Shown here: in pieces, positions 14,148-33,435 of the stretch
Numbering within the stretch: the first letter of the stretch is position 1
Layout of the letters: every line of letters starts with the position of its first letter
From: Candidatus Saccharimonadota bacterium
GTDB lineage: Bacteria; Patescibacteriota; Saccharimonadia; Saccharimonadales; Saccharimonadaceae
DNA length: 46,393 nt
Assembly: GCA_017514805.1 (NCBI GenBank)
Contig: JAFWIP010000003.1
Location: 1-46,393, forward strand
Reading direction: 5' to 3'
Notes under the pieces: model-generated
Databases searched by the model: none
What the model was told of the DNA's origin: nothing
What the model saw: only the letters and a program-made list of their open reading frames with translations
Program-made: the position numbers and the translations under genes

Positions 14148-14171
14148 ATTGCATAATTTTAACATTTTTGG

Positions 14172-14236
14172 TATAATATCGGAAGTTACCAAAGACAGTG
14201 GCGGTGTTTATCACTTAATTATGCCACCGAGGATTC
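14172..14236 (+). promoter_or_regulatory. rplJL promoter and ribosomal protein L10 leader RNA
   Basis: TATAAT (14172-14177) is followed by a leader that matches the L10-leader pattern: ACCAAAGACAG near 14188, a GGCGGTG arm, CTTAAT, and the closing GCCACCGAGG by 14233. In other bacteria L10(L12)4 binds this fold and represses its own operon, so the same autoregulation is expected. Confidence 0.88.
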
Positions 14237-14320
14237 TTCAATCTTATTGTCTAGATTATTGGTGACGAGCCTTAACATTTTCTGGCTTTAACAATAATAA
14301 CCAAAAGGAGATTTCTATCT

Positions 14321-17020: not shown

Positions 17021-17728
17021 ATGAATAGTGTCAAAAAATACATTGCCGAATTCATCGGTACCGCTATTTTGGTACTTTTCGGCTGCGGCACCGCTGTCGT
17101 TAGTGGCGGCAATCTAATATTAACTTCATTTGCCTTTGGCCTCGCAATTGTAGCGGGCGCATACGCCATCGGCGACATTTCGGGCTGCCACGTCAACCCG
17201 GCCGTCTCGCTCGCAATGCTCATCAGTGGCAAACTATCCATCAAAGATTTCTTTGGCTACGTTGCTAGCCAAATTGCCGGCGCATTCGCAGGCTCAGGCC
17301 TCCTCTATGCAATTCTCAGCTGCACTAACCTCGGCACAAAAGCCCTAGGCGCCAATGGTTTTGATGGCTACAGCGCAACTGGCCTAAACATGACTGGCGC
17401 AATTCTCGTCGAAATCATCTTAACATTCGTATTCGTCTATACAATTCTCGGTGTTACCGCAAAAGTCGAGCGCGCACATATTGCCGGCATCGTTATTGCG
17501 CTAACACTCACCTTCGTACATATTATCGGCATCAACTTAACTGGCACTTCCGTAAACCCAGCTCGCTCTCTCGCACCAGCCGTATTACTCGGCGGCGAAG
17601 CAATTAAACAAGTATGGGTATTTATCGTAGCGCCATTCGCCGGCGCCGCTGTTGCAGCTTGCGTCTACAAAATGCTCAATGTTGGTTGCGCAGCAGAGAC
17701 TAAACCAACCAAGAAATCCAAGAAATAA
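17021..17728 (+). CDS. Aquaporin (MIP family channel)
   Basis: The protein has 235 residues and six membrane helices in two repeats. Both pore motifs are present: GCHVNPAVS and GTSVNPARS. Ser after the second NPAR favours a water channel (AqpZ type) over a glycerol facilitator, which usually has Asp there. It would move water or small neutral solutes across the membrane. TAAAAT lies at 16983-16988, and the RBS AAAGGGA is eight bases before the ATG. A basic tail KPTKKSKK ends the protein. Confidence 0.95.
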   Translation: MNSVKKYIAEFIGTAILVLFGCGTAVVSGGNLILTSFAFGLAIVAGAYAIGDISGCHVNPAVSLAMLISGKLSIKDFFGYVASQIAGAFAGSGLLYAILSCTNLGTKALGANGFDGYSATGLNMTGAILVEIILTFVFVYTILGVTAKVERAHIAGIVIALTLTFVHIIGINLTGTSVNPARSLAPAVLLGGEAIKQVWVFIVAPFAGAAVAACVYKMLNVGCAAETKPTKKSKK

Positions 17729-17740
17729 TAGATACATTAT

Positions 17741-17859
17741 CCCCTCATCTAAAGCTTTAAAGAAGACCGTCGTCAGGCCAGCCCGCCGTTGCGGGTGTCC
17801 TGCGACTCGTACTCGGCCGTAGCCTCCGTAAGCTTCTTAAAAGCTTCAGATTCAGGGGG
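17741..17859 (+). repeat. Structured intergenic element, copy 1
   Basis: An imperfect inverted repeat closes this 119-base element: 17741-17765 pairs with 17833-17859 (AAGCTTTAAAGAAG against CTTCTTAAAAGCTT, plus CCCC/GGGG ends). Inside are GTCG-T-CAGG..CCTG-CGAC around CCCGC-CGTT-GCGGG, and a second hairpin whose loop contains CCGTAGCCT. It does not end in a T-run, so it is not a simple terminator. Copy 2 (17886-18002) is its diverged inverted homologue. No open reading frame of note lies in 17729-18026. Confidence 0.7.
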
Positions 17860-17885
17860 TTTAATATATCCCTAATCACTATATT

Positions 17886-18002
17886 TTCTCACCTGAAGCA
17901 TATTTGAGAGCTCGCGCAGCCTACGGGCGAGCGTGAGGAGCGAGTCGCCCGTGAAGACGGGCCGACTCGACGACGTTCTCTCTAATATGTTTCAGGTGAG
18001 AA
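17886..18002 (-). repeat. Structured intergenic element, copy 2 (inverted)
   Basis: A 25-base stem, 17886-17910 against 17978-18002, has one G.T pair and one mismatch. Read on the minus strand the core has CGTCGTC, the hairpin CGAGTC-GCCCGT-CTTC-ACGGGC-GACTCG, and a hairpin with loop CCGTAGGCT between CTCGC and GCGAG. It matches copy 1 in order, spacing and loop sequence while the stems have changed on both sides. It ends 12 bases before the -10 box of dnaX. Confidence 0.7.
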
Positions 18003-18026
18003 ATCATTTTGAGGTATAATTGTAGT

Positions 18027-19415
18027 ATGAAGGCATTGTATCGGAGGTACCGCCCGAAGACGCTCGCCGAGGTAATCGGCCAAGAGCAAATCACTAGCGT
18101 GCTCGAAAAATCGCTCAAAAACCACAAGATTTCGCACGCCTATCTTTTTATTGGACCACGCGGAACCGGTAAAACCTCCGTTGCGCGCATTCTTGCTCAT
18201 GAGATCAATGGTTTTAAATACGAACTTGAAGATGACTACCTAGACATTATTGAAATTGATGCAGCTAGTAATACTGGCGTAGATAATATTCGCGATCTCC
18301 GCGAACGTGCGATCATCGCGCCAACCAAAGGCAAGTTCAAGGTTTACATCATCGACGAAGTTCATATGCTCAGTAAGTCAGCATTCAATGCCTTGCTCAA
18401 AACGCTCGAGGAGCCGCCAGAGCACGTCGTATTCATCATGGCGACGACTGATGCGCATAAGGTGCCTATTACTATCACGAGTCGAAGCCAAGTCTATACG
18501 TTCAAGCTCGCTAATCCGAGCACGATGTTTGATCATCTAAAAGATATCTGCAAAAAAGAAAAAATCAAAATCACTGATGACGCAATAAAAATCGTCGTCA
18601 AGCGTGGTGGCGGCTCATTCCGCGATTCATTATCCTTACTTGATCAGGTATCGACAATTAGTGATGGCGAAATCGATGGCGAAATGCTCACTAAAGCACT
18701 CGGTCTACCGCAGGAAGCAATTATCGAATCTCTTATTAATGCTTATGTTTCTGGAGACCTAGCAACAATCCGAAATCATCTAACCGAGCTAACAGAATCC
18801 GGAATTAAAGCAGAAATTACCGCTAATGAATTAGTCGACGCAATTATTGCTAATCCGGAACCGCAGTTATTGCCACTGCTCGATAAGCTTATTGACGTTA
18901 ATCGCTCAAGCAATCCGGCCGCAAGGCTACTCTTGGCGCTTTGCCAAAGCCAAAACAGCATCGTAATGCCGCGCCAAATAGCTCAAGCGCCAATTATCCA
19001 AAAAGCCGCTGCTCCGGTCAAACCGCAACCAACACCAAAGACCGCAGACAGTAAAACATCGCAGCCTGCGCCTTTACCAGAACCAGAACCGGCGCCGCAA
19101 CCGATAGCAATCGCAAACGACACAGGCGCAACGGAGATATGGCAAAAAATCATCGCACATGTCGCCGAAAAACACCCACTTCTTGCACCTGATATCGTTA
19201 CCGCAAAATATACCTTTGAAAACAAAATCTTGAAGATATATACCGGCAACTATGTACGCGCTAAGAATATCGAAAAACGTCGGAACGCAATCGCAGAAAT
19301 CCTGCCAGGCGACATTACAATCGAAATCACTAAGGAAAAACTCGCTACAGATCCAGAAGTAGCAAACATTGCCGCCATCATGGGCGGAGGAGAGGAGGTA
19401 GAAATCAATGAGTAA
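18027..19415 (+). CDS. dnaX: DNA polymerase III subunit gamma/tau
   Basis: The protein has 462 residues. It is the clamp-loader ATPase: Walker A GPRGTGKTS, IEIDAASNTGVDNIRDL, Walker B VYIIDEVHM, LLKTLEEPPEHVVFI and the SRS arginine-finger box. A Pro/Ala-rich linker (about 325-370) leads to a C-terminal domain. The four-Cys zinc module normally between Walker A and the AAS motif is missing: HEINGFKYELEDDYLD stands in its place. The start at 18027 lies exactly six bases after TATAAT (18015-18020), so the mRNA is probably leaderless. It overlaps dnaB by eight bases. Confidence 0.95.
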   Translation: MKALYRRYRPKTLAEVIGQEQITSVLEKSLKNHKISHAYLFIGPRGTGKTSVARILAHEINGFKYELEDDYLDIIEIDAASNTGVDNIRDLRERAIIAPTKGKFKVYIIDEVHMLSKSAFNALLKTLEEPPEHVVFIMATTDAHKVPITITSRSQVYTFKLANPSTMFDHLKDICKKEKIKITDDAIKIVVKRGGGSFRDSLSLLDQVSTISDGEIDGEMLTKALGLPQEAIIESLINAYVSGDLATIRNHLTELTESGIKAEITANELVDAIIANPEPQLLPLLDKLIDVNRSSNPAARLLLALCQSQNSIVMPRQIAQAPIIQKAAAPVKPQPTPKTADSKTSQPAPLPEPEPAPQPIAIANDTGATEIWQKIIAHVAEKHPLLAPDIVTAKYTFENKILKIYTGNYVRAKNIEKRRNAIAEILPGDITIEITKEKLATDPEVANIAAIMGGGEEVEINE

Positions 19416-32595: not shown

Positions 32596-32697
32596 GGCCT
32601 CATTTTTGCATTGATTTCATAAATCAAAAAGCATAAGTACGTTATTTTAGGCATATTTGTATTTTTATGGTGTAATTTACTATATAATAGTAGTGTC

Positions 32698-33435
32698 ATG
32701 GCAAAATCTGACAACATTATCGAAGTAAAAAATTTCAAAATTTCTTTTGCCGAAAAAACCGTTATCAAAGACCTGAATTTCAATGTCAAACGCGGCGAAA
32801 TTTTTGGCCTTCTTGGCAGCAACGGCTCCGGCAAGACAACTACTATCCGTGTTCTCCTTGGCCTCTATCGCCAAGACAAAGGCGAACTTCTCATTAACGG
32901 CAAAGCCTTTGAGCCGACCGACGACATTCGCATCGGCTATCTACCAGAAGAGCGTGGCCTTTACAAAAAAGAGACCGTCTTTGACGTAATGATGTATTTC
33001 GCCCGACTCAAAAATCTAAGCAATCCAAAAGAATGGATTATGGACTATCTTAAACGCGTCGGACTCGAAGATTTTGCAAAGACGAAAATCAACAAACTTT
33101 CTCAGGGTATGCAGCAAAAAGTCCAGCTCGGCATCTGCGTCATGAATGATCCAGAATTACTTATCCTTGACGAGCCGACTAAAGGCTTTGACCCAGTCAA
33201 CCGCCGTCTCCTCATGGACATCATCGAAGAACAGCACAAGAAGGGCTGCACAATCATCATGATTACTCACTATATGGATGAAGTAGAGCGCCTTTGCGAC
33301 GATATCCTTCTCCTAAAGGACGGCGTCGCGCGCGCACAGGGGCCAGTAAAAGATGTTCGTAAAAAGTTCGATAATAAATCGCTCGACCAAATCTTTGTAG
33401 ATATTTATGGCGAAGAAGTGGAGGCAGAAAAATGA
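32698..33435 (+). CDS. ABC transporter ATP-binding protein (NatA type)
   Basis: The protein has 245 residues. Walker A GSNGSGKTT, Q-loop region GYLPEERGLYK, signature KLSQGMQQKVQ, Walker B LLILDEPTKGFD and H-loop ITHYMDE are complete. It powers the next gene's permease, with which it overlaps by four bases. TATAAT (32683-32688) is nine bases before the ATG. NatA/NatB-type pairs export Na+ or other small compounds; the substrate here is unknown. Confidence 0.93.
   Translation: MAKSDNIIEVKNFKISFAEKTVIKDLNFNVKRGEIFGLLGSNGSGKTTTIRVLLGLYRQDKGELLINGKAFEPTDDIRIGYLPEERGLYKKETVFDVMMYFARLKNLSNPKEWIMDYLKRVGLEDFAKTKINKLSQGMQQKVQLGICVMNDPELLILDEPTKGFDPVNRRLLMDIIEEQHKKGCTIIMITHYMDEVERLCDDILLLKDGVARAQGPVKDVRKKFDNKSLDQIFVDIYGEEVEAEK

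Follow-up and report, generated by a model that had tools for sequence, protein, structure and literature searches.

Two palindromic elements, here termed A and B, lie upstream of dnaX in the analysed window (the whole stretch of 46,393 nucleotides) and belong, with a probability of roughly 70%, to a selfish, non-autonomous kind of palindromic mobile element from one Candidatus Saccharibacteria family, an element whose insertion adds an inverted copy of one flank of its target. The unit that is repeated among genomes is the inner core of each element, and the long outer stem differs at every site.

Two inverted elements at the dnaX boundary

Elements A (17741–17857) and B (17884–18004) are situated between an aquaporin-like ORF (stop at 17728) and dnaX (ATG at 18027). 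Both sequence and predicted folds agree with the preliminary description of two inverted elements before dnaX. Their spacing is about 18–27 bp, and the two inner hairpins, the CGTCGTC motif and the loop CCGTAG[C/G]CT were found in both, neither of which has a closing T-run. To describe orientation, R designates the strand reading ...CTTACGGAGGCTACGGCCGAGTACGAG...CCCGTAACGACGGG...ACGACG, which is the minus strand for A and the plus strand for B. From 5' to 3', R comprises an outer arm, hairpin 2 (GGC-UACG-GCC type), hairpin 1 (CCCGT-AACG-ACGGG with a conserved bulged base), the ACGACG tail and a second outer arm. The features are as follows:

17741–17765, unstranded: left arm of element A, locus-specific outer stem, pairs with 17833–17857
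17766–17832, minus strand: conserved core of element A, 67 nt; model R1 match at 17747–17846, 84.5 bits
17768–17774, about 17775–17801 and about 17806–17832: parts of core A, namely the tail CGTCGTC, hairpin 1, and hairpin 2 with loop region CCGTAGCC
17833–17857, unstranded: right arm of element A, locus-specific outer stem, pairs with 17741–17765
17884–17910, unstranded: R-5' arm of element B, outer stem, inverted repeat
17911–17977, plus strand: conserved core of element B, 67 nt; model R1 match at 17899–17994, 83.4 bits; fold z-score −10.4
17911–17937, 17941–17969 and 17970–17977: parts of core B, namely hairpin 2, hairpin 1 and the tail ACGACGTT
17978–18004, unstranded: R-3' arm of element B, outer stem, inverted repeat, stopping about 11 nt short of the dnaX −10 box
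18015–18020, plus strand: dnaX −10 box TATAAT, present also in relatives without the element

The inverted repeat around core B extends over 35 nt (17876–17910 and 17978–18012; 83% complementary), the solid part of the stem running from about 17884 to 18004. RNA-fold z-scores for the plus and minus strands were −5.3 and −6.7 for A and −10.4 and −7.5 for B, with zero shuffles folding equally well, and the listed R1 scores stem from a covariance model whose 21 copies include both elements; the signal is far beyond chance. As the cores of A and B differ from each other, the two are separate insertions.

A host function at dnaX, as a DNA cruciform or terminator, would account for the very stable palindromes at this boundary, which occur in four genomes: two copies in G000 and at least one each in G012, G041 and G046. 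Such a function is extremely improbable, as the aquaporin–dnaX gap of most relatives holds either a plain terminator or none, and the same element occupies many unrelated loci. We see no grounds for a conserved role of A and B at dnaX, and they probably have none. Scanning the region against Rfam 15 at the gathering score gave no match, and the best sub-threshold hits of a lax scan had E > 2. Elsewhere in the window, a ribosomal protein L10 leader (RF00557, 52.5 bits) is located upstream of rplJ at 14171–14292.

A dispersed and recently mobile core

The preliminary description had proposed a covariance-model search over Saccharibacteria genomes. A search of relatives at the DNA level identified copies in 11 of 41 genomes, and model R1 recovered about 150 copies in 31 of the 45 genomes of the genus. 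Across the order, at least 102 of 393 genomes carry copies; these genomes belong to five genera, all within family f1, and the counts are lower bounds since at most ten candidates were scored per genome. A core 25-mer, searched among 84,980 species genomes, had matches in Candidatus Saccharibacteria records alone, some of which (several) bear the label of sheep or buffalo gut. The same 25-mer gave no exact match in IMG/VR, where a viral carrier was sought. Within the papers accessible to it, the literature search returned no paper on a palindromic element or repetitive extragenic palindromic sequence in Saccharibacteria, and a single chance match for an inverted repeat with a mobile element.

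What repeats is a core of about 60–85 nt, made up of two hairpins closed by 3–5 bp. The outer stem of about 25 bp, which had been described as part of the element, does exist, but it is locus-specific and lies outside the conserved unit, which at dnaX spans only the inner 67 nt or so. In the 21-copy alignment, both partners have changed in 29 of 34 pairs, and pairing extends to 79.6% of cells compared to 33–46% when partners are slid. Aligned to the model, 122 copies gave 3607 Watson-Crick, 117 G-T and 57 A-C pairs, an excess of G-T over A-C that may come from the model fitting G-U. The CGTCGTC-like tail is partly paired in several copies.

The suggestion of a mobile hairpin is borne out by this dispersal together with signs of recent movement and the in-frame insertions in essential genes described below. 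Near-identical cores (64–70 of 70 bases) occupy different sites, including several pairs within one genome; G328 harbours five copies with 68–70 of 70 identical core bases, and comparable sets comprise three copies in G341 and two each in G046 and G021. Several contigs terminate within a copy, as repeats do to assemblies. The copies are scattered instead of forming integron-like arrays. With respect to strand, R coincides with the C-rich one in 82 of 123 copies (p = 3e-4), a bias that may only reflect gene orientation but could be linked to replication or transcription.

Bulged hairpins, CGTC-like tails and inverted pairs are reminiscent of REP dimers: of 20 neighbouring pairs less than 600 bp apart, 17 are arranged −+ like A and B, three lie on the same strand and none is +−. 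A REPIN or REP system moved by a RAYT (Y1) transposase, the strict sense of the REPIN-like option in the preliminary description, is nevertheless highly improbable. Y1_Tnp of the IS200/RAYT type (PF01797) was detected in only four of the 45 genus genomes (G005, G020, G042 and G054), all four without detected elements, and the core is a two-hairpin unit of 60–85 nt rather than a single hairpin of 20–40 nt with a GTAG-type tetranucleotide foot. We therefore rejected RAYT/Y1 as the mobiliser; for present-day genomes this route is contradicted, and it would need a RAYT that has since become extinct. A resident reverse transcriptase, as of a retroelement or group II intron, was likewise rejected because its occurrence is sporadic: RVT_1 scored above the cut-off in six of 45 genomes and was lacking in those richest in elements, for instance G046, G012, G048 and G059. 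No mobilising enzyme emerged from these searches.

The outer stem is specific to each site

Identity between cores ends at the 3–5 bp closing stem (GGG/CCC, GAG/CTC, GGAC/GTCC or GAAAC/GTTTC), which is also the only conserved terminal inverted repeat of the shared unit. Beyond it, the flanks are unrelated between copies, yet form near-perfect inverted repeats within each copy. For 139 copies, 96% of own-arm complementarity scores exceeded the maximum of 278 swapped-arm controls. The same holds within the identical-core sets, in which own arms scored 14–21 and swapped arms 1–11. Identical cores leave no time for divergence; therefore, the arms did not travel with the core and come from the target site. 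A 2-nt target-site repeat may exist at some sites (L063, L274 and L279) but not at others.

These results bear on the remark of the preliminary description that stems which differ while pairing is kept are as expected for a selected structure. This may be true for the core hairpins, but it is wrong for the outer stems: arms that are unrelated yet fully paired are already seen where the cores are identical, so they did not drift apart under selection. The alternative of a conserved structured RNA or cis-regulatory leader, with stems drifting through compensatory mutation, is accordingly very unlikely. The core hairpins do covary strongly, R is the better-folding strand in 97 of 106 copies, and many copies are located just 5' of a −10 box. 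However, drift cannot yield identical cores with unrelated arms, no Rfam family matches, and the copies occupy all gene contexts (tandem, divergent, convergent and intragenic), including coding frames in both orientations. Single changes among closely related orthologues comprised 43 G-T and 27 A-C (p = 0.07), so that selection on one RNA strand is not demonstrated. The earlier proposal of a regulatory RNA is thus not supported as a general role.

The long stems could alternatively be a property of the target, if the mobile core entered the loops of pre-existing hairpins, above all terminators, and the target hairpin became the outer stem. Some observations agree with this. The G046 element at dnaX resides within what looks like an existing terminator hairpin, between GCCCC and GGGGCATTTTTT, where G056 has a plain terminator; the G008 site lacking a copy is a bare hairpin; and T-rich runs accompany 25–30% of copies compared to 15% of random flanks. 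We nonetheless consider it unlikely, as palindromes of comparable quality (17 of 20 pairs, loop of at most 8 nt) are rare where no element is present: none occurs in the window and three in 624 kb of other element-free loci (about one per 200 kb), whereas 65 of 104 copies have such arms, a comparison that somewhat favours the copies since a register slide was allowed at the core edge. Moreover, excision of the core from several G328 copies leaves loop-less palindromes, unlike terminators, and 23 of 74 single copies are flanked by divergent genes, a setting in which a terminator would not be expected. The arms are thus mostly not pre-existing palindromes. Gene context and palindrome scarcity contradict terminator loops as a general target, and the copies do not form a class of Rho-independent terminators, with a T-rich run at only about 25–30% of them and those 23 single copies in divergent regions.

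Copies inside genes and the origin of the arms

In two genomes, G002 and G013, copies are inserted in frame in about ten housekeeping genes (loci L144–L149, L151 and L267–L270), as identified from translations and homologue searches. The hosts are pheT (in both genomes), ksgA, prmC, dus, der, tsaD, obg and polA as well as a methyltransferase-like and a DegT-like gene. In four genes, the inserts of one subfamily encode a recurrent peptide (ENTLRARPSLRGAGAGVRLEIDGQRPSLPQ and variants). The prmC gene of G013 (L147) contains an insert of about 237 nt, seemingly one complete and one partial element, as by nested or repeated insertion.

Comparison with uninserted homologues gave a measure of how much DNA had been added in four in-gene cases, in three of which the extra DNA approximates the core plus one arm. 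The inserts in pheT (87 and 108 nt) and ksgA (75 nt) correspond to core plus one arm within 6 nt, and that in dus (96 nt) falls between the core (84) and the core plus one arm (117.5). Gene spacing points in the same direction. For the 74 single copies, the distance from the core to the nearest gene was 40 nt on the R-3' side and 84.5 nt on the R-5' side, the R-3' side being nearer to a gene in 57 of them (p = 3e-6), as expected if the extra arm usually joins the R-5' side. At the locus between dnaG and the gene for a 205-aa protein, at dnaX and at rpoD, native promoter or gene-end sequence lies in the R-3' arm and is mirrored in the R-5' arm. In the exceptions L072 and dus, the native side appears to be R-5'; copying direction thus appears to be biased and not uniform. 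Because of these two exceptions and the terminator-like stem at dnaX of G046, some targets may already be hairpins.

The intergenic region between dnaG and the 205-aa gene (L105, L125 and L154) is an insertion hot spot: among three species whose flanks are about 95% identical there, elements have variously been deleted in part, truncated or replaced. The window itself includes, at 32669–32702, the orthologous, empty version of a site occupied by a copy in G046 (L061).

The G053 and G008 sites differ by an 80-nt indel. This could be a deletion, and we do not claim a clean insertion. At the orthologous sites of G048, G055 and G022, the two stop codons are only a few nucleotides apart, so that both arms at this site are new DNA relative to those species. 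A closely related before/after pair of known direction, in which native flank and inverted copy can be followed nucleotide by nucleotide, was not found.

A possible mode of insertion

In the mechanism we favour, the mobile unit is the core with its two hairpins and closing base pairs. On insertion, 20–35 nt of one target flank would be duplicated as an inverted repeat across the core, placing each copy at the tip of a long, site-unique stem. The strand end carrying the core might fold back, or the polymerase might switch template, at the base of the core hairpins; the folded or switched strand would then copy the adjacent flank and rejoin the original template. The same reaction could later re-homogenise the arms, by which the stems would stay matched. 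Perfect stems are known to arise from a single template-switch event (PMC8794818), and template switching is also reported to homogenise the arms of inverted repeats (PMC8604942). We infer such a snap-back or template-switch step, and a route at the DNA level is most likely. The element is probably selfish. Whether the process amounts to a distinct mode of transposition, in which the folded core joins the target, primes inverted copying of the flank and makes its own stem of 20–35 bp at each insertion, with neither terminal inverted repeats nor a dedicated transposase being needed, we put forward tentatively, at slightly less than even odds.

Relation to known palindromic repeats

One close likeness is to the Rickettsia palindromic elements (RPE), which are about 100–150 bp long, lie in intergenic regions and in frame within essential genes, encode the same peptide in several cases, and have no known enzyme (PMC2229807, PMC10969869). 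Palindromic repeats in frame within conserved protein genes, with a recurrent peptide, are a hallmark of RPE (PMC2229807) shared by the Saccharibacteria element. However, in RPE as described the whole palindrome belongs to the repeat family, whereas here only the inner 60–85 nt are repeated and the stem is site-specific; the hosts also belong to another phylum. The two kinds were compared by their descriptions.

CGTC-tagged REPs (Di Nocera et al., 2013; PMC3733652) are single hairpins of 20–40 bp with 8–9 bp stems and a CCA-like tail, found in other phyla. They share with the present element a hairpin with an adjacent CGTC, the pairing of oppositely oriented units into dimers, a location within genes for some copies and the lack of a dedicated transposase (PMC3733652), but the latter has a two-hairpin core of 60–85 nt and an outer stem of 20–35 bp. 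Its tail adjoins this core in place of lying unpaired beside a single hairpin of 8–9 bp, and it was thus not assigned to this group. Inverted pairs of structured repeats and non-autonomous spread are common to REPIN/RAYT systems, which differ by the smaller unit and by the RAYT that was not detected in the element-bearing genomes of the genus. Bacterial MITEs such as RUP, Correia/NEMIS and ERIC are also small non-autonomous mobile palindromes near genes; the Saccharibacteria element has no conserved terminal inverted repeat beyond 3–5 bp, and its arms are unrelated between copies. In template-switch (quasipalindrome) mutation, inverted repeats are made or perfected by copying from arm to arm (PMC8794818, PMC8604942). 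Existing sequence is the substrate of that process, while in Saccharibacteria the copying would accompany the entry of a mobile core. As a kind of element, small palindromic selfish DNA is known; the stem made at the site and the host family appear to be new.

For RPE-like and CGTC-type palindromes, the question of how they move is open because no transposase has been found for them. Copies with identical cores at many sites separate what moves from what the target site makes, which turns this into a testable question. They also carry a warning, as strong base-pair covariation can stem from templated copying instead of selection on RNA. Finally, in-frame palindromic insertions in essential genes are hereby extended to a lineage with reduced genomes that is far from Rickettsia.
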